Assembly (NCBI GenBank): GCA_016462245.1
Contig: JAEMTR010000004.1
Span: forward strand, 1-33,075
Reading direction: 5' to 3'
DNA from: Solirubrobacteraceae bacterium
Lineage (GTDB): Bacteria; Actinomycetota; Thermoleophilia; Solirubrobacterales; Solirubrobacteraceae
Length of the DNA: 33,075 nt
Of the stretch, positions 17,324 through 33,075 are shown one piece after another (within the stretch, counting starts at the first letter, position 1; every line of letters begins with the position of its first letter). A program made the translations under genes and the position numbers. The notes below the pieces were generated by a model. That model ran no database searches and was not told the DNA's origin. It saw only the letters and a list, made by a program, of their open reading frames with translations.

Positions 17324-18817
17324 ATGAGCTCGCCAGTCGGCACGATCCTCGGTGGCCGCTACGAGATCGACGAGGTGATCGGTCGTGGCGGCATGTCGAC
17401 CGTCTACCGCGCCCATGACCTGACACTCGAGCGTTGGGTGGCAGTCAAGATCATGCACCGTGAGGTGGCTCGCGAGAGTGAGCAGCTCGAACGCTTCCGC
17501 CGCGAAGCGAAATCGATCGCCAAGCTCTCCTCGCCGTACGTCGTCGGCGTCGATGACGCCGACGAGCAGGATCAAACGCCTTACATCGTGCTCGAGTACG
17601 TCGACGGGCAGACGCTGAAGCAACGGATACGCGAGTTCAAGCGGCTTGACATCGCCGAAGCTGTGGCCTTCACGATCGAGATCGCTAGAGGGCTTGAGGC
17701 TGCGCACGAGCGCCAGATCGTCCACCGCGACGTGAAACCACAGAACGTTCTGCTCGACGAGGATGGCGCAGCACGCGTGACCGATTTTGGAATTGCCCGC
17801 CAGCTCAACGACGAATCGCTGACGGCCGATGGCCGCGTCCTCGGCACGACCGATTACGTGAGCCCCGAACAGGCACTCGGCCACGACGTCACGCCGCAGT
17901 CCGACCTTTATTCGCTCGGTGTCGTGCTCTTTGAAATGTTGACCGGCGACGTGCCCTTCCGCGGCGAAAACCAAGTCGCCGTGGCGATGTGCCACGTTCG
18001 TGACGAACTACCTGACGTGCAACAGCTACGGCCTGAGGTCTCAACCGTGCTGGCAACGGTTGTAGACACAGCGACGGCGAAGAATCTCGACGTCCGCTAC
18101 CGCAACGCGGATGAAATGATCATCGACCTCGAAGCGGCGCTGGCCGTCGAAACTGCCCGCAGCGGCCACATCACCGGCGAAGCAACGGCCGTCTTCGAAT
18201 CGCTCCCGCGTGAGACGCGCCAACGCGTCGCCGTCAAGATGTCGCATCCTTGGCGCTGGCTCGCGCTGATCGCTCTGGGAGCTGTGATCGTCGTCGGCGC
18301 CTTCGCCTACCTAGCGAGCACGGCGCAGCGGGGGACCGGCACCGAAAACGCCCGCCCTGGCGACGGTTTGACGGCCGTCTCGCTTAGCGCCAGTTCAGCC
18401 CAGGCATACGATCCGGCTGGCGACGGCGCCGAGCACGACGACGAGGCTGCCTTCGCCGTTGACCGCAGCCCGTCAACAATCTGGTCAACCGAGGATTACC
18501 TGGGTGGCAACCTCGCGAAGCCGGGGCTCGGCCTCGTGATCGATGCCCGTCCGTCGCTGAAAGCGAGGGCGATCGACATCGTCAGCCCAACCCCAAGCTG
18601 GTCGGGCAGAATCTTCGCCGCCAGCGGCAGCGAACCACCGGCCTCGATAGATGATCCGGCTTGGACTGAGGTCGGCCAAGTGCCAAGTGCGACGGCCCGA
18701 ACGCGAGTCCGCCTGACGACCGATGGCAAGGCCTTCCGTTGGTACCTAATCTGGATCGAGCGCTTTGCGCCCAGTCAGAGCATGGTCGAGATCAGCGAAG
18801 TCTTCCTCTACCGCTAG
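17324..18817 (+). CDS. Ser/Thr protein kinase, single TM, extracytoplasmic discoidin/F5-8 type C-like C-terminal domain
   Basis: Kinase motifs GRGGMSTVYRA, VAVKIM, HRDVKPQNVLL, TDFGIAR, SPEQ; TM LALIALGAVIVVGAFAYLA; C-terminus AFAVDRSPSTIWSTEDYLGGN...GLVIDA...SQSMVEISEVFLYR. Confidence 0.93.
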   Translation: MSSPVGTILGGRYEIDEVIGRGGMSTVYRAHDLTLERWVAVKIMHREVARESEQLERFRREAKSIAKLSSPYVVGVDDADEQDQTPYIVLEYVDGQTLKQRIREFKRLDIAEAVAFTIEIARGLEAAHERQIVHRDVKPQNVLLDEDGAARVTDFGIARQLNDESLTADGRVLGTTDYVSPEQALGHDVTPQSDLYSLGVVLFEMLTGDVPFRGENQVAVAMCHVRDELPDVQQLRPEVSTVLATVVDTATAKNLDVRYRNADEMIIDLEAALAVETARSGHITGEATAVFESLPRETRQRVAVKMSHPWRWLALIALGAVIVVGAFAYLASTAQRGTGTENARPGDGLTAVSLSASSAQAYDPAGDGAEHDDEAAFAVDRSPSTIWSTEDYLGGNLAKPGLGLVIDARPSLKARAIDIVSPTPSWSGRIFAASGSEPPASIDDPAWTEVGQVPSATARTRVRLTTDGKAFRWYLIWIERFAPSQSMVEISEVFLYR

Positions 18818-18826: not shown

Positions 18827-19815
18827 CCGCTCTGCTCGCGGTAGCGGGCGAGCGCAATTTCCAGCAGCCGCCCGCAGAGCTCGGGGTATTCGATACCGCT
18901 CTCTTGCCAGAGCCGCGCGTAGACGCTGGTCGTCGTGAAGCCAGGCATCGTGTTCAGCTCGTTGAGCAGAACCTCTTCGCCGTCAACAAAGAAGTCGGCC
19001 CGCGCGAGGCCACTGCAATCGGCTTCGCTGAAGGCGCGTAGCGCAAGCTCGCGGACGCGAGCGGCGGCCGTTTCGGAGATCCGCGCCGGCACAACCAGCT
19101 CCATTCCCCCCGGCGTGTATTTAGCCTCGTAGTCGTACCAACCGCCGGGCGAAGCGCTTTGCAGGACGACGATCTCGCCGGCCACGCTGACCTGCGCCTG
19201 CTCGGCGCTGCCGAGGACTGAGCATTCAACTTCAATGCCACTGCAGGCCGCTTCGACGATCACGCGCGGGTCATAAAGAAAGGCTTGCTCCAGCGCCGCG
19301 CTCAGCTCACCTGCCTCAGCGACGCGGACGATCCCGACCGACGATCCAAGCCGCGCTGGCTTGACGAAAAGCGGAAGGCCGAGCGCCTCAATTTGAGCGT
19401 CGAAGGCAGCCCGGTTGGTCTCGTAACTAGCGCGCGTTAGAGCGACGAAGTTGACCTGCGCGATCGCAAGATGTTCGAACAGCTGTTTCAGCGCCAGCTT
19501 GTCGATGCAGACCGCCGAGGCTCGCACGCCGCTGCCAACGTAGGCGATGTCGAGCATCTCAAGCAGACCTTGAATCGTGCCGTCCTCACCGAACGGGCCG
19601 TGCAGAACGGGAAAGGCGACATCAGCGTCAAGCAGGCCGTGGCCGGGGCGAAGCTCAAGCTCGTTCGCTCCGCAGAACCAGCGGCCTTCGGCGTCGATCT
19701 CAATTTCTCGCAGCTCGTGGCCAGCTCGGCGAACCCCATCGGCAACTGCGGCGCCGCTGATCAGCGAGACCTCGCGTTCCGAGGATCGGCCTCCCGAGAT
19801 AACGGCGACGATCAT
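18814..19815 (-). CDS. ddl: D-alanine--D-alanine ligase
   Basis: MIVAVISGGRSSEREVSLISGAAV...FPVLHGPFGEDGTIQGLLEMLDIAYVGSGV...LFVKPARLGSSVGI...VLLNELNTMPGFT. Confidence 0.96.
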   Translation of the reverse strand: MIVAVISGGRSSEREVSLISGAAVADGVRRAGHELREIEIDAEGRWFCGANELELRPGHGLLDADVAFPVLHGPFGEDGTIQGLLEMLDIAYVGSGVRASAVCIDKLALKQLFEHLAIAQVNFVALTRASYETNRAAFDAQIEALGLPLFVKPARLGSSVGIVRVAEAGELSAALEQAFLYDPRVIVEAACSGIEVECSVLGSAEQAQVSVAGEIVVLQSASPGGWYDYEAKYTPGGMELVVPARISETAAARVRELALRAFSEADCSGLARADFFVDGEEVLLNELNTMPGFTTTSVYARLWQESGIEYPELCGRLLEIALARYREQSGYRF

Positions 19816-21725
19816 CGAGGCCTGCCCCGCAAGCGAGCGCCGCCGGCAGGAGGCGGTTGATAGCGTCCGACGCCGATCGTCACGGTCGAACCGCTCGGCG
19901 CCGAACCGCCGGAAGGGTTCTGCGAGACGACCGTGCCGTCTTGGCTCTCCTCGGAAACGTCGACCCGGTCAACGCTGACCGTGAAACCGGCACTTTGGAT
20001 GTCGGAGATTGCCGAGGCCTCATCTTCGCCAACGGTATTGGGCACCTTGGTCGTTGCCTGCTTCTTGGCGACGACGATCGCGATCGTTGCACCCTTGGCA
20101 GCCTTCGTTCCGGCGCCGGGATCTTGGCGCAAGACCGTTCCCTCAGCCGAGGCCGATTCCTCCGTCGTAACGCTGACGCCAAAGCCGGCGCCGCGCAGCG
20201 TCGCGCTAGCGTCGTCGACGTTCTGGCCAATGACGGCCGGCACTTCAACCGTCTCTTTGCCGCTCGAGACGACAAGCGTCACGGTTGAGCCTCGGTCTAC
20301 CGGCGTACCCTCCGGTGGCAGCGTCTCGATGCTGTCACCACTAGGCACGGTGTCGGATGACTGTTTGCGTATTCGAACTGTGAAGCCAGCATTTTGAAGT
20401 TTCCGCTGCGCCTGCGAAGCCGACATCCCGGCGACCGACGGCACAGCGACCGAGGCGGGGCCGTCGGAGACTGTCAGCGTGATCGTCGAACCTTTGTCTG
20501 CCTGTTCGCCGCCCGGCGGATCCTGGCCGACGACCTGCCCTTTCGGCGAGTCTGATTTCTTGACCACGCTGTCGGTCTTGAACCCGGCCCGGACTAAAAC
20601 CGCCTGCGCCGTTGACTCTTCGCTGCCAACGACGCTCGGAACCGTTGCTTGGTCGGGCTTCAGCAGCAGCAGCAGCAGGATCAGCAGCCCTACGGCGACG
20701 ACGGCGCCGCCAGCGAAAAGCCACCAACGGCGGGTTGGCCCTTGATCCTCGTCGCTACCGCGGTTGGCGTAACCGCCGGAGGCAGCCGCAGCGCCAGCGC
20801 CGGCGCCAGCCGCAAGCGTGTGGCCGCTCATTCCAATCGCCGTCGATTCGCCAACGCCAGCGGCGGTAGCGATCGGGGGCGCTTCGGCAGGCATCGTTCC
20901 GACGCGAGCCTGCTCGAGCGCGTCGATGAACTCGTCGGCGGTCGCGAAGCGCTGCGCCGGATCCTTCGCCAAGGAGCGCATGATCACGGCCTGAAGCTGT
21001 GGGCTGATCGCGGCGTTAATCTCGCATGGCGGCGTTGGTATTTCACTGACGTGCTTGAGCGCAATAGTGACCGCGCTCTCGCCATCGAACGGCACCTGGC
21101 CGGTGACCATCTCGTAGAGGATCACGCCGATCGAATAGAGATCGGACTGCTCGCTAACCGCGTGGCCTTGGGCCTGCTCCGGCGAGAGGTACTGGGCGGT
21201 GCCCATGATCGAGCCGGTCTGCGTCATGTCCGAGGCGCCGGCGCGGGCGATGCCAAAGTCGGTCACGGTCGCTAAGCCGTCGTCATCAACAATCACGTTG
21301 TGAGGCTTGAAGTCGCGGTGAATCACGTTGCGCCGGTGGGCGAAGCGTGCGGCTCGCAGAATCTGCGTCGTCATCTCGATCGCCCAGTCGGAATCGAGCG
21401 CGCCGTACTCGTTGATGATCGCCTTTAGCGTTCGGCCTTGGAGATACTCCATCGCGATGTAATAGGTGCCGTCCCATTCGCCGCGGTCATAGACCGAGAC
21501 GACGTGTTGATGTTGAAGGCTGGCGGCGGCCGATGCCTCGCGTCGAAAACGCTCGACAAACTCAGCGTCCTGAGCAAAACGGCGGTAGAGCAACTTGATT
21601 GCCACTTCGCGATCGAGTTGAAGGTCGGTGGCGCAATAAACGTCGGCCATCCCACCGGAGCCGAGCAGATACTCGACGCGGTAGCGATCGTCGATCGTCG
21701 TTCCTGGCTCGACACCTGTGCTCAT
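19812..21725 (-). CDS. pknB: PknB-type Ser/Thr protein kinase with four PASTA domains
   Basis: True start ATG at 21725 (MSTGVEPGTTIDDRYRVEYLLGSGGMADVYCATD), not 21857. HRDFKPHN, TDFGIAR, TM, then four PASTA repeats (VPSVVGSEES..., VPSVAGMSAS..., VPAVIGQNVD..., VPNTVGEDEA...). Confidence 0.95.
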   Translation of the reverse strand: MSTGVEPGTTIDDRYRVEYLLGSGGMADVYCATDLQLDREVAIKLLYRRFAQDAEFVERFRREASAAASLQHQHVVSVYDRGEWDGTYYIAMEYLQGRTLKAIINEYGALDSDWAIEMTTQILRAARFAHRRNVIHRDFKPHNVIVDDDGLATVTDFGIARAGASDMTQTGSIMGTAQYLSPEQAQGHAVSEQSDLYSIGVILYEMVTGQVPFDGESAVTIALKHVSEIPTPPCEINAAISPQLQAVIMRSLAKDPAQRFATADEFIDALEQARVGTMPAEAPPIATAAGVGESTAIGMSGHTLAAGAGAGAAAASGGYANRGSDEDQGPTRRWWLFAGGAVVAVGLLILLLLLLKPDQATVPSVVGSEESTAQAVLVRAGFKTDSVVKKSDSPKGQVVGQDPPGGEQADKGSTITLTVSDGPASVAVPSVAGMSASQAQRKLQNAGFTVRIRKQSSDTVPSGDSIETLPPEGTPVDRGSTVTLVVSSGKETVEVPAVIGQNVDDASATLRGAGFGVSVTTEESASAEGTVLRQDPGAGTKAAKGATIAIVVAKKQATTKVPNTVGEDEASAISDIQSAGFTVSVDRVDVSEESQDGTVVSQNPSGGSAPSGSTVTIGVGRYQPPPAGGARLRGRPR

Positions 21726-23164
21726 CGCAGCAGCGACTCCATCACAGCTTTGGCGATCGGCGCGGCGTCGGTGCCGCCAAAGCCGCCGACCGTCTTCTCG
21801 ATCGTGACGGCGATCGCGACCTGCGGATCGGATGCGGGGGCAAAGGCGATAAACCATGGCTGCGCAATGTTGTTGATCACGTCGATCTCAGCGGTGCCTG
21901 TCTTGCCGGCGACTTCGATCCCCGAAAGCGCGGCGGCGGTGCCGGTTCCCTCCTCAACGACGCGCTGCATCATTGCCGTCAGCTTCTCGGCGCTCGCCGC
22001 CGACATCACGCGTGAAAAGCGCTGCGGCTTGTTTTCGTAGGCGGTGCGCCCTTCGGGATCGATTGTCCGCGTCGCGATTCCTGGGCGCATCAGGATTCCG
22101 CGGTTGGCGACGGCGCTGGCGACCATCGCCATCTGCAGCGGCGTCGCCAGCAGCTTGTCTTGCCCGATCGAAGCGCGGCCGATGTCGACGCAGCTATCGG
22201 TCGGACTGACGAGCTCACGATTTCCATCAGGCGAGCAATAGAGGCCGCTGGCGAGCCGCTCATCGGCAGGTAAATCGACCGGCACTGGGCTACCGAAACC
22301 AAACCGCTCCATGTAACGACTGATTCGACGCTTACCGACGCGCTCCCCCACCTGCGCCCAAACCGTGTTTACCGATTGCGTAAGAGCTGTTGTGAGATCG
22401 ACCTCACCGAAGCTCTGACCGCCATCGTTGTTGAGCGGAACGCCCGAGATCTCAACTCCGTTGTCGCCGTTGACGGTCGATGTAGGTTCGTAGAGGCCAC
22501 TGTCGATCGCTGCCGCGGCGGTCACGACTTTAAAGGTGGAGCCCGGCGGGTAGAGCCCCGCGGTTGTGCGGTTGAGCAGCGGCGCGCCGGGCGCTGAGTT
22601 CAGCCTCGCCGTCTGTTTTGCGCTGCGCAGAACGTTCGGGTCATAGCTGGGGATCGAAGCCATCACTTTGACGCGGCCGCTGCTCGGGTCGAGCGCGACG
22701 ACGGCGCCCGCCCTACCGGCCAACTGATCAAGTGCGATCTGCTGCGCCTGCGGATCGAGCGCGGTCTGTAGATCATTTCCTTGCTGGCGCTTGCCTTGGA
22801 GCTTGCGCAGCGTCCCCTCAAACCCAGCCGTGCGCCCCGTCAGCTGGCCGTTGTAGAAGCGCTCGAGGCCTGCAGTGCCGGGGTTGAGGAATGAGTAGCC
22901 AACGGTTTGAGCGAAGAGCCCGTTCTCCGGGTAGCGGCGCGCGTAGGTGCCGTCGCCGCGTCGAACAGATCGGGCAAGAACGGTTCCCGTATCGGCCACG
23001 ATCGAGCCACGGGCGATCCGCTGCTGGGCCAGCAACTCGCGTTTATTCTGCGGGTTATCTTGGAGCGCAGCGCGGTCAATCACAGTCCAGCGCGTTGTGA
23101 AGTAGGCGAGCAGTCCGAACAGCACCAGCAGCACCACGAAGACGCGGATGATCGGCTTGTTCAT
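21722..23164 (-). CDS. pbpA: Penicillin-binding protein 2-type transpeptidase
   Basis: MNKPIIRVFVVLLVLFGLLAYFTTRWTVID...RGSIVADTGTVLA...PPGSTFKVVTA (SxxK), VAGKTGTAE (KTG); syntenic with rodA and pknB. Confidence 0.94.
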   Translation of the reverse strand: MNKPIIRVFVVLLVLFGLLAYFTTRWTVIDRAALQDNPQNKRELLAQQRIARGSIVADTGTVLARSVRRGDGTYARRYPENGLFAQTVGYSFLNPGTAGLERFYNGQLTGRTAGFEGTLRKLQGKRQQGNDLQTALDPQAQQIALDQLAGRAGAVVALDPSSGRVKVMASIPSYDPNVLRSAKQTARLNSAPGAPLLNRTTAGLYPPGSTFKVVTAAAAIDSGLYEPTSTVNGDNGVEISGVPLNNDGGQSFGEVDLTTALTQSVNTVWAQVGERVGKRRISRYMERFGFGSPVPVDLPADERLASGLYCSPDGNRELVSPTDSCVDIGRASIGQDKLLATPLQMAMVASAVANRGILMRPGIATRTIDPEGRTAYENKPQRFSRVMSAASAEKLTAMMQRVVEEGTGTAAALSGIEVAGKTGTAEIDVINNIAQPWFIAFAPASDPQVAIAVTIEKTVGGFGGTDAAPIAKAVMESLLR

Positions 23165-26988: not shown

Positions 26989-28734
26989 TCAGCGCTTTTC
27001 TCGCAGCGTCGCCGCCGCCAGCGCGACCAGTGCAGCGAGCGCGCTTCCAGCTACCAAGACGCCAACCTGCGGCATCTGCAGCGGCCAGTGCAGCGCCCCT
27101 GCGAGCAGAACGCTAGCCGTGCTCAGGGTCGCCGCCCAAAGCACGGCCGTTGCGAGCTGAACAGCTACGAGACGGGTCGCCATTATCAACGGCAGGATCG
27201 ATGCTGCGGCGGCCCAGATCAGCGCGACGAGTGGAACGCCGTGGGTGATAATCGCGATCACCGCTTCGCCACCGCCTGCGGCTGAGCCAGCCCAGCCGGC
27301 GGGCAGCGCGAGATCACCGAAGAGCAGCCGGCTGTTGGCGATCGGTTCAGCCAGCGCCAGCCACCAGAAGCCAAGACCGGCAAGCGCAGCGCGATGCTTG
27401 GCGCTGGCGCTGAAACCGGCGAACGCTGGGAAGGCGAGCGCCAAGCTGGCGAGTCCCAGCAGCGGCGCAAGAAATGGCAGCAGCCAGCTGCTCGGGCTGC
27501 GCCCCAGCAGCAGAATCGTCGGCGCCAGTGCCGCCCACAGCAGCACAGCCCAGCCCGGCACGCCAGCAACGACGAAGAAGGCGCTGAGCGCGATAGCGAC
27601 GATTAGCGCGCCAACCCGTGGCAGCAGCGCGACCGCCAGTACAGCGCAGATCACAGTCCAAAGCATCGGCAGCCGCGGCGCGGCGGCAATCGGCTCTAGT
27701 GCCAGCATCGACGCCACTACGAGCGCCGCCGCTGCGACTGCGGCAACCAGCCTCTGCGCTATGAAGAAGGACCGATCAAGGTGCTCTTGATCTGGATCGG
27801 CGAGCAGATCGTGCTGCTGATCCTGCTCGATTGCGACGATGTCGACCGCTCCGGCCGTGGTGTCGGTCTGCGGAAGCCCGTCGATCAAAGCTTCGCGAAG
27901 CTCCGCCAAGCTGCCGCGGTCGAGCTCCTCCGGCTGTACCGCCCAGTCGATCGCGTCACAGATCTGTTCCGGTAGCTCAGGCCGCAGGTGGTTCAGCGGT
28001 GGCAGCCTCGTACCAACCCGCCGCGCCGTTGCAGCAGCTCCCGGAGCGCGGATCGGGTTGACGCCGCTGAAAGCTTCATAGAGGACGAGCGCCAGCGAAT
28101 AGAGGTCGCTCTGGCCGCTGACCGGGCGCCCGTCCGCCTGCTCGGGGGCCATGTAGGCGAGCGTGCCAACGACATCGCCGGTGTGCGTCAGCGCATCATC
28201 GCCGGCAATCAATGCGATCCCAAAGTCGGTCAGTTTGACAATCCCAGCCTCGCCATCGGGGCGGTCGGGAATGATCACGTTGGCCGGTTTGATGTCACGG
28301 TGGATAACTCCGCGCGCATGGGCGTGATTGAGCGCGTCGCAGAGAGCGACGCCGATCCGCGCGACGTCGCGGTCGGACAGTTCGCCGGCTACGAGCCTCT
28401 CGCGCAGAGTCTTGCCGCGGACCAGTTCGGAGACTAGGTAGACCGCTTCGGCGTCGCGGCCAGCTTCGTGGAGGGCAACAATCCCAGGGTGGTTGAGTCG
28501 CGCAGCTGCGATCGCCTCGCGCTCGGCACGGGCCGCCATCGCCGGATCGTGAGCCTCTATTCGTTTGACGGCGACGACGCGATCGAGCCGCTCGTCTAAT
28601 GCCAGCCAAACGACGCCGAAAGCGCCGGCGCCGAGACGGCGCATCAATCGGTAGCGCTCAAGCACAACGGTCGCCGTAACCTCGCCCTCAGACGGCGGGT
28701 CATACTGAACGATCGTTGTGTCGACGGTATTCAC
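26989..28734 (-). CDS. Ser/Thr protein kinase with polytopic membrane C-terminal half; GTG start
   Basis: YRLMRRLGAGAFGVVWLALDE...VAVKRI...HRDIKPANVII...LTDFGIALI...MAPEQADG...; residues after ~330 form several consecutive hydrophobic segments. Confidence 0.92.
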   Translation of the reverse strand: MNTVDTTIVQYDPPSEGEVTATVVLERYRLMRRLGAGAFGVVWLALDERLDRVVAVKRIEAHDPAMAARAEREAIAAARLNHPGIVALHEAGRDAEAVYLVSELVRGKTLRERLVAGELSDRDVARIGVALCDALNHAHARGVIHRDIKPANVIIPDRPDGEAGIVKLTDFGIALIAGDDALTHTGDVVGTLAYMAPEQADGRPVSGQSDLYSLALVLYEAFSGVNPIRAPGAAATARRVGTRLPPLNHLRPELPEQICDAIDWAVQPEELDRGSLAELREALIDGLPQTDTTAGAVDIVAIEQDQQHDLLADPDQEHLDRSFFIAQRLVAAVAAAALVVASMLALEPIAAAPRLPMLWTVICAVLAVALLPRVGALIVAIALSAFFVVAGVPGWAVLLWAALAPTILLLGRSPSSWLLPFLAPLLGLASLALAFPAFAGFSASAKHRAALAGLGFWWLALAEPIANSRLLFGDLALPAGWAGSAAGGGEAVIAIITHGVPLVALIWAAAASILPLIMATRLVAVQLATAVLWAATLSTASVLLAGALHWPLQMPQVGVLVAGSALAALVALAAATLREKR

Positions 28735-32066: not shown

Positions 32067-32098
32067 TCGCCATCCCTGAGTCCTGCTAGATTCCGCGA

Positions 32099-32344
32099 TA
32101 CCAGAGAAAGGGGGTGGTCCAAATCGAAAAACCAATGTTTTCCGGGACCCTGGAGGTGACCGGCCGCTAGCGCGGTTGGCTGGACCCGCTAAGCGGAATC
32201 CAATCCGGGACACCGTTGGCCGATTCGCCGGAGCTGGTCCCCCCGGCCGCCCGCATAAGTTGCGAGTGAAGAACGACCGGCCGATTTAAATTCAGTCAGC
32301 AGTTGGGAAGGGCGTCGGGTTTATATCCGGCGCCCTTTTCTTTT
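32099..32344 (+). ncRNA. Putative structured non-coding RNA ending in an intrinsic terminator
   Basis: Non-coding interval between the HNH gene and gyrA with hairpins at 32116-32149, 32160-32179, 32182-32201, 32200-32219, 32227-32247 and 32252-32264, then a terminator at 32308-32344. TAGATT -10-like hexamer at 32087-32092. Confidence 0.6.
32308..32344 (+). terminator. Rho-independent terminator
   Basis: AAGGGCGTCGG-gtttatat-CCGGCGCCCTT (11 bp, one G-U) followed by a T-rich tract (ttttctttt). The minus-strand reading lacks a T tract. Confidence 0.9.
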
Positions 32345-32352
32345 GCGGCGAG

Positions 32353-33075
32353 CTACTCGTCTTCTTCGTCGGCCGCTTCAGCGTCTTCGTCAGCGTCAGT
32401 GTCCGTGTCTTCCTGATCCTGCTCGTCCTCTTGCTCGAGCTCTTCTTCGACGAGCTCAGCATCTTCGCTGACGACTTCGGCCTCTGTGGCCTCTGTGGCC
32501 TCGAGCTCGGCGCTCTCGCCCTCAGCGGTCTCAGCGTCTCCCTCGGCGTCCTCTACGACCATCGCAACGGCGCTGACAACGTCGCCGTCACGCACATTCA
32601 TCGTCTTGACGCCTTGGGCGCTGCGCCCGTACCTGTTGATGCCGCTGGCTGCGGTCCGCTGAACCATTCCCTCGCGTGAGATGAAGATCAGGTCCTGGTG
32701 CTCTCTTACGACGAGCGCGCCGGCGAGGCCGCCCTTGGCTTCGGTCAGCGCGATCGTCTTGACGCCCTTGGCGCCACGCTTCGTCTTGCGGTATTCGCGC
32801 ACCTGGGTCCGCTTGCCGTAGCCGTTGTCGGTGATCACGAGCAGGTCCATGTCGTCGCGGGCGATGTCCATCGCGATCACTTCGCCCTTCTCGCCAACGT
32901 CCATTCCCTTGACGCCGCTCGTGCTGCGGCCCATCGAGCGGGCGTCCGATTCAGCGAAGCGGACGGTCAGCCCGGCGCGCGAGGTGATCAGCACCTCATC
33001 GTCCTTGTCGACGCCGCGAACGACGATCAGCTCATCGTCGTCGCGAATCTTGATCGCGATGATGCCGTCGGCCTT
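32353..33075 (-). CDS. gyrA: DNA gyrase subunit A, C-terminal beta-pinwheel region plus acidic tail; 5' part lies beyond window
   Basis: Reverse strand is open to the window edge: KADGIIAIKIRDDDELIVVRGVDKDDEVLITSRAGLTVRFAESDARSMGRSTSGVKGMDVGEKGEVIAMDI...AQGVKTMNVRDGDVVSAVAMV, then an E/D-rich tail. Confidence 0.93.
   Translation of the reverse strand, partial: KADGIIAIKIRDDDELIVVRGVDKDDEVLITSRAGLTVRFAESDARSMGRSTSGVKGMDVGEKGEVIAMDIARDDMDLLVITDNGYGKRTQVREYRKTKRGAKGVKTIALTEAKGGLAGALVVREHQDLIFISREGMVQRTAASGINRYGRSAQGVKTMNVRDGDVVSAVAMVVEDAEGDAETAEGESAELEATEATEAEVVSEDAELVEEELEQEDEQDQEDTDTDADEDAEAADEEDE

Follow-up and report, generated by a model that had tools for sequence, protein, structure and literature searches.

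RF02471 (Ms_IGR-5) is an sRNA family of Actinobacteria that was first reported from Mycobacterium smegmatis. Its transcription is supported by RNA-seq in Streptomyces lividans (PMC8079986), in S. avermitilis it is reported as an sRNA transcription unit of its own (PMC8780764), and its homologs carry ribosome footprints in M. abscessus and M. smegmatis (PMC4974804). The authors of the last study doubt that all ribosome-protected sRNAs are translated, and the question is left open there. A literature search, with subscription papers mostly outside its scope, returned no description of a reading frame or of a function for Ms_IGR-5; an earlier description is possible.

Several other systems invite comparison with the RNA described below. 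Ms1 and 6S RNA are also stand-alone structured RNAs of 200-300 nt found in Actinomycetota, but our RNA lacks their long rod and central bubble and possesses instead the helices P1, P2 and P3 and a pseudoknot. Identity with Ms1 is ruled out by the M. smegmatis map, on which Ms1 lies at 6.24 Mb (PMC4191392), and by a study in which IGR-5 is entered separately from Ms1 (PMC10454040); IGR-5 is unnamed in a paper on RNAP RIP-seq (PMC11077062). In Staphylococcus aureus the regulated genes infC, ccpN and cvfC1 are experimentally known to combine an extended Shine-Dalgarno (SD) sequence, with very long pairing, and AUU/AUA-type starts that limit initiation (PMC13009471). Those are full genes, whereas the open reading frame (ORF) of the family considered here has 10-19 codons and no gene behind it. 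Leader-peptide attenuators and uORFs, for example the E. coli topAI uORF (PMC12121999), likewise place a short ORF over alternative helices that are followed by a terminator. Unlike these, the family RNA has no conserved downstream gene, and any regulation must therefore be exerted either in trans or upon the RNA itself.

The RNA gene and its surroundings

The window, by which we mean the whole stretch of DNA that was analysed, comprises 33,075 nt of contig JAEMTR010000004.1 from a Solirubrobacteraceae bacterium (GCA_016462245.1). A preliminary description of this DNA had proposed a plus-strand non-coding RNA of about 245 nt between an HNH gene (PF01844/PF14279) and gyrA. The gap in question extends from 32067 to 32352 (286 nt); gyrA runs on the opposite strand to the RNA gene, and there is no same-strand gene behind the RNA within the gap. 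The presence of a plus-strand RNA gene is borne out by comparison, in that the intergenic DNA has homologs in 51 of 61 relatives. The predicted gene (32100-32345, +) reaches from a 5' end at 32099/32100 to the end of a T-rich tail and is separated by 33 nt from the end of the HNH gene, which is read from the same strand. A 5' end near 32099, as had been proposed, fits the comparative data well. The putative -10 element TAGATT (32087-32092, +), which has no clear -35 partner, ends 7 nt ahead of 32100; relatives show a -10-like element (TANNNT) at an equal distance, and the 5' A that directly follows this spacing is near-invariant (a fraction of 0.97 in Thermoleophilia and of 0.93 in the other members). 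A consensus sigma-70 scan of the window called no full promoter. At the 3' end an intrinsic-terminator-like hairpin (AAGGGCGTCGG/CCGGCGCCCTT) with the T-rich tail TTCTTTTG occupies 32308-32345 (+). In relatives a similar hairpin (GAAGGGCGCC/GGCGCCCTTC) occupies roughly this position, and in the Thermoleophilia homologs a strong hairpin of this kind is found about 180-240 nt from the 5' end. The sole terminator match of a consensus scanner (32347-32361) differs from the hairpin at 32308-32345.

The genes that flank the RNA are not the same from clade to clade. In Mycobacterium colombiense it is flanked on one side by an aminotransferase class IV gene and on the other by a THAP4-like gene, and elsewhere, including Acidimicrobiia when compared with the window, the neighbours are unrelated and may be on either strand, with downstream genes that differ in both identity and strand. 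Across the loci compared we did not find a conserved same-strand downstream gene of the sort that marks a cis-acting leader or attenuator. Since the neighbours vary while the 5' end, body and terminator are conserved, the RNA is best regarded as a stand-alone gene and not as a leader, in agreement with what had been suggested from the window by itself.

Two further features of the neighbourhood were recorded. The C-terminal end of GyrA (32353-33075, -) carries a long acidic tail (..EDAELVEEELEQEDEQDQEDTDTDADEDAEAADEEDE), and D/E-rich ends ahead of the gyrA stop are likewise seen in same-genus loci. Three genes for Ser/Thr protein kinases are found within about 11 kb, at 17324-18817 (+), 19812-21857 (-) and 26989-28734 (-); one of the three has PASTA domains and is near an FtsW/RodA gene, so that the trio looks like a cell-division or cell-wall signalling cluster.

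Relationship to RF02471

In an Rfam search at standard thresholds, no family reached its cutoff. With relaxed thresholds, the RF02471 model aligned over its full length (1-184) to 32100-32289 on the plus strand, with 25.4 bits and E=8e-4, a score below the gathering cutoff of 45 bits. The same-genus ortholog (G003) exceeds this cutoff, with 45.5 bits and E=5e-9, and in the relatives the RF02471 matches coincide with the positions of the conserved intergenic DNA. The window RNA thus shares with the model both the 5' end and an alignment that spans the entire family. This full-length match, in the window and in the same genus, rules out a new RNA class, which the preliminary description had envisaged. 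Its exclusion of RNase P, tmRNA, SRP RNA and 6S RNA was confirmed by the Rfam searches, which gave no match to any of these, or to tRNA, and for 6S none up to E=10. A match to ctRNA_p42d covers the terminator hairpin only, and one to Scr2736 is at chance level.

To follow the family further, GTDB genomes were scanned with a core pattern consisting of AAGGRGGTGGTCC, a loop, GGAC and GAGGTG. The scan returned at least 119 loci, and among the matches listed nearly all are named Actinomycetota, from Thermoleophilia, Acidimicrobiia, Mycobacterium, Micromonosporaceae, Nocardioides, Actinomadura, Cellulomonas and others. Eighteen pattern loci were tested against RF02471; twelve of these, all from Actinomycetia, passed the cutoff with 52-179 bits, and the Thermoleophilia and Acidimicrobiia loci in this sample fell under it. 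The exact pattern is present in 50 of 399 genomes of the phylum and a slightly longer version in 93 of 201 genomes of the order, and because the pattern is exact these are lower bounds. The reversed pattern, used as a control on the same phylum and order genomes, had no matches. The RF02471 model itself recovers further members that are absent from the pattern matches. Two MAGs named as Acidobacteria (L079 and L042) also carry the RNA, and that of L079 resembles the Acidimicrobiia type; these are probably misnamed or contaminated bins and do not represent spread beyond the phylum.

From the RF02471 alignment and the Actinomycetia members linked to it by the pattern, it follows that the window RNA is a divergent relative of RF02471, a remote branch of a known family that lies below formal Rfam membership. 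The likeness comprises the 5' end, the AAGGRGGTGGTCC...GGAC...GAGGTG core, the mini-ORF and the order of the helices. The window lineage differs in its score, in having a 5' stem of CCAG/CTGG in place of CACA/TGTG and a near-cognate start, and in a 3' body with P3, P4, a pseudoknot and a terminator hairpin with a T-rich tail, as well as in its neighbours.

Complementarity to the 3' tail of 16S rRNA

Positions 32105-32120 (+) read AGAAAGGGGGTGGTCC, which pairs with the whole 16-nt 3' tail of 16S rRNA, GGATCACCTCCTTTCT, with two G-U pairs. The tail was taken from same-genus genomes, and as GGCTGGATCACCTCCTTTCT it was found exactly in 11 of the 41 genomes searched, three of them belonging to the same genus. 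In the genome assembly, which is about 85% complete and in which the organism's own 16S gene was not found, no site other than 32105-32120 can pair over the full 16 nt. The picture in 24 relatives is comparable, since 16-nt complements occur there almost only in the family RNA and on the opposite strand of the 16S gene. Contiguous pairing with the tail extends over 16 nt in 123 of 143 family members and over 15 nt in the other 20.

Helices and pseudoknot

Folding of the single sequence gave z = -1.68, with 9 of 200 shuffles equally good, and the opposite strand scored the same. This check, which the preliminary description had called for, thus shows a slight advantage that is unremarkable. Given the equal score of the opposite strand, folding alone is insufficient and comparison among relatives provides the real evidence. 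The same description had listed seven stems, all of which are present in the gap when it is read again; the fate of each under comparison is given below. The shuffle controls that we report ignore shared ancestry, and the explicit compensatory pairs are independent of them.

Helix P1 (32101-32153, +), predicted from the fold and from covariation, joins CCAG at 32101-32104 to CTGG at 32150-32153, and GGTCC at 32116-32120 to GGACC at 32145-32149. An 11-nt bulge (32105-32115) exposes the SD core, and the inner GGUCC/GGACC helix surrounds the start codon of the mini-ORF. P1 is the minimum-energy fold of 32100-32156 and likewise of three of the five other family sequences that were folded. Its outer helix covaries phylum-wide, as CCAG/CTGG, CACA/TGTG, CACG/CGTG or CGCG/CGCG, and has a mean of 4.15 bp compared with 3.03 in shuffled data (maximum 3.24, 0 of 500 shuffles as good), again with ancestry shared. 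The GGTCC/GGACC portion of the first listed stem therefore survives as part of P1; the GAAAA/TTTTC pairing drawn inside it is not conserved.

Helix P2 (32155-32214, +) pairs GGTGACCGG (32155-32163) with CCGGGACACC (32205-32214) and has an internal A/GA mismatch in the window. Relatives show the compensatory forms GGTGTC/GACACC, GGTGCC/GGCACC and GGTGGCC/GGCCACC, with a weak shuffle control (36 of 1000). A pseudoknot (32178-32297, +) that crosses P2 is predicted from compensatory pairs between GGCTGGA (32178-32184) and TTCAGTC (32291-32297). In Thermoleophilia, where the consensus is GGCTGGA/TCCAGYC, these include GACTGGA/TCCAGTC, GGCTGAT/ATCAGCC and CGCTGGA/TCCAGTG, and 1 of 1000 shuffles did as well. 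The long-range helix P3 (32215-32285, +), formed by GTTGGCCG (32215-32222) and CGGCCGAT (32278-32285), covaries strongly across 30 Thermoleophilia loci (0 of 1000 shuffles). Conservation and covariation in relatives, which had been named as a check, are thus found for the outer part of P1, for P3 and for the pseudoknot. An RNAalifold consensus on a MAFFT alignment missed both P3 and the pseudoknot.

Two of the local stems seen in the window are conserved in the Thermoleophilia alignment, namely the hairpin CCGC-TAA-GCGG (32186-32196, +) and P4 (32227-32247, +), in which GCCGG (32227-32231) pairs with CCGGC (32243-32247) around a loop with GTCC. A permissive search found the GTCC-loop hairpin in 130 of 141 members. 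The CGCA/TGCG stem holds up as a genus-level hairpin, with CGCC/GGCG as a compensatory form. The two remaining stems, one of 8 bp with two G-U pairs and the other with CCAA/TTGG at its base, compete with the conserved P2 and P3 and are unsupported as drawn. In one Thermoleophilia locus (L141) a long additional hairpin (CCCCCCATATTTCCCC...GGGGGG) is inserted after the stop of the mini-ORF and ahead of the pseudoknot strand, which shows that insertions are tolerated in this loop.

A conserved short reading frame

Behind the SD sequence is a putative mini-ORF (32123-32170, +), recognized by translation and by the conservation of its frame, start and stop. It begins with ATC 8 nt after the SD, would encode IEKPMFSGTLEVTGR and ends with TAG at 32168-32170. 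An alternative start, the ATG at 32135 (MFSGTLEVTGR), stands 20 nt away from the SD. The GTG that comes first, at the SD itself (32114), was rejected as a start, as it shares bases with the SD and lacks its own ribosome-binding site.

The stop codon lies exactly five codons past the GAG codon at 144 of 144 loci (TAG in 121, TGA in 15 and TAA in 8), although the search pattern does not demand it. An in-frame start at the right spacing, defined as a canonical start 7-13 nt after the SD or a near-cognate one at exactly 8 nt, is present in 208 of 209 distinct segments; in the other two frames the corresponding numbers are 0 and 1. In the lone exception a CTG lies in frame at a distance of 10 nt. 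This frame is uninterrupted in every one of the 209 segments, compared with 55 and 92 for the other frames. Members differ in the distance from SD to stop, with each of the three values modulo 3 represented, and the start tracks the stop. Most clades use TTG, ATG or GTG; the rest use CTG, ATC, ATA, ATT or ACG at exactly 8 nt. At loci obtained from the Rfam model, independently of the pattern, the ORF is found in 13 of 14, and the fourteenth (L200, E=0.0025 for RF02471) is an apparent false match on a protein gene. In L199 a TTG is merely 5 nt from the SD. In L198, from another family of the same class, there is one base fewer before the stop, and start and stop are shifted together. This locus lacks the GGAC strand of P1, yet a 10-codon ORF (ISDHSGGGSS*) is preserved in the new frame by an ATT located 8 nt past the SD. 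On these comparisons, the start, frame and stop of a short ORF are conserved beyond chance. The label of non-coding RNA given to the window gene is accordingly doubtful, since a mini-ORF with a maximal SD is present in essentially every member examined.

In nearest-neighbour comparisons of the variable codons, changes numbered 66, 77 and 75 at positions 1, 2 and 3, with no third-position excess, and 41 of 154 single changes were synonymous compared with 30.3 expected, a figure confounded in the C-terminal half by RNA pairing. That half of the ORF overlaps P1 and P2, and its conservation may be due to this pairing. In particular, the residue after T follows the P1 sequence, being L with CCAG/CTGG, C with CACA/TGTG and R with CACG/CGTG. 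Because the residues seem free to vary as long as frame, stop and helices are kept, the frame and stop are probably under stronger selection than the peptide, and translation itself seems to be the selected feature.

Discussion

The anatomy of this RNA is well supported by the sequences compared, which agree on the complement to the 16S tail, the in-frame start and stop, the P1 bulge, P3 and the pseudoknot. How these parts might work together is a more conjectural matter. We propose, with about even confidence for and against, that the locus specifies a stand-alone RNA of about 245 nt, the Thermoleophilia version of RF02471, whose fold is gated by ribosome docking and by translation of the mini-ORF. 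In this scheme 30S subunits would dock on the SD exposed in the bulge, which would serve as a standby site. P1 would be the gate, since GGUCC, at the outer end of the 16S pairing, is also one strand of the GGUCC/GGACC helix and the two pairings compete. Once P1 had opened, a ribosome translating the mini-ORF would cross the 3' strand of P1, then the 5' strand of P2, and would halt at the UAG inside P2, breaking P2 and probably the pseudoknot too. The RNA would then toggle between a folded form and one opened by the ribosome, depending on how translation initiation stands, and the near-cognate starts (ATC, ATT, ATA, CTG, ACG) might render the switch sensitive to conditions of initiation such as IF3. 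Its output would be in trans: it might retain 30S subunits, or it might expose the 3' domain with the GUCC-loop hairpin. Against this scheme, the proposed start in the clade of the window is ATC, normally a poor one, and a distance of 20 nt separates the ATG from the SD. In addition, the full 16-nt pairing would abut helix 45 of 16S rRNA, and initiation 2 nt further on may be incompatible with it. If full pairing and initiation were mutually exclusive, the opening of P1 might itself be a decision point.

A broader version of this proposal, that throughout the phylum the RNA is a stand-alone sensor of translation initiation, is one that we put forward tentatively and consider rather doubtful. 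The longest complement of the 16S tail would feed a mini-ORF with often weak starts, and passage of the ribosome would remodel a pseudoknotted RNA that acts in trans. If this were true, the sensor would amount to an attenuator without a downstream gene.

The potential clash at helix 45 also makes a decoy function possible, in which the RNA would mainly sequester 30S subunits through its 16-nt complement, for instance as growth slows, and the mini-ORF would set the length of their stay. The sole full-length complement in an assembly of about 85% completeness, the 15-16 nt of pairing in all 143 members, the SD core in an open bulge and the weak near-cognate starts of many clades are all consistent with this. 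We nevertheless judge it unlikely, since a decoy has no need of a start and a stop, yet these are in frame in 208 of 209 segments, and since most Actinomycetia members start with ATG, TTG or GTG, so that ribosomes could leave.

The conserved frame, start and stop could also be read as those of a micropeptide mRNA, whose product would be a peptide, 10-19 residues long and in most cases with the ending (R/G/W)T(L/R/C)EV-x-x-(R/S), and whose structure would control only the dose of that peptide. A C-terminal TxEV does look conserved, and other bacterial sRNAs encode peptides (PMC5521070, a general survey). However, the first half varies without third-position excess, and the C-terminal half is tied to P1 and P2, is partly fixed by the search pattern and has a post-T residue that follows the P1 pairing, which leaves this explanation distinctly unlikely. 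A classical trans-acting antisense sRNA, in which target mRNAs would be bound by the GUCC loop of P4 or by some other exposed segment and the SD and ORF would be protective or secondary, appears improbable. It is in keeping with the conserved GUCC-loop hairpin, with the RNA's own 5' end and terminator and with the classification of RF02471 as sRNA by Rfam, but most other segments are held in helices, and both the reading frame and the 16S-tail complement would be left unexplained. Finally, an unrelated product of the HNH gene that is confined to this lineage, a 3'-UTR or read-through RNA with a terminator, an option of the preliminary description for which the position of the RNA gene 33 nt past the HNH stop on the same strand might speak, is extremely improbable in view of the phylum-wide conservation with differing upstream genes, the fixed 5' end and the -10-like element.

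Whether or not the ribosome-gated scheme proves correct, the comparisons suggest a revised view of the family. RF02471, previously listed as a non-coding RNA of unknown function, appears not to be simply non-coding, in that its members share a conserved reading frame and a full complement of the 16S tail, and it can now be traced past the reach of Rfam to Thermoleophilia and Acidimicrobiia. A widely conserved actinobacterial RNA would thereby be linked to translation initiation in a way that may be tested, including in mycobacteria and streptomycetes, for which genetics and Ribo-seq are available. It also provides a caution that families classed as sRNA can conceal selected reading frames of a dozen codons.
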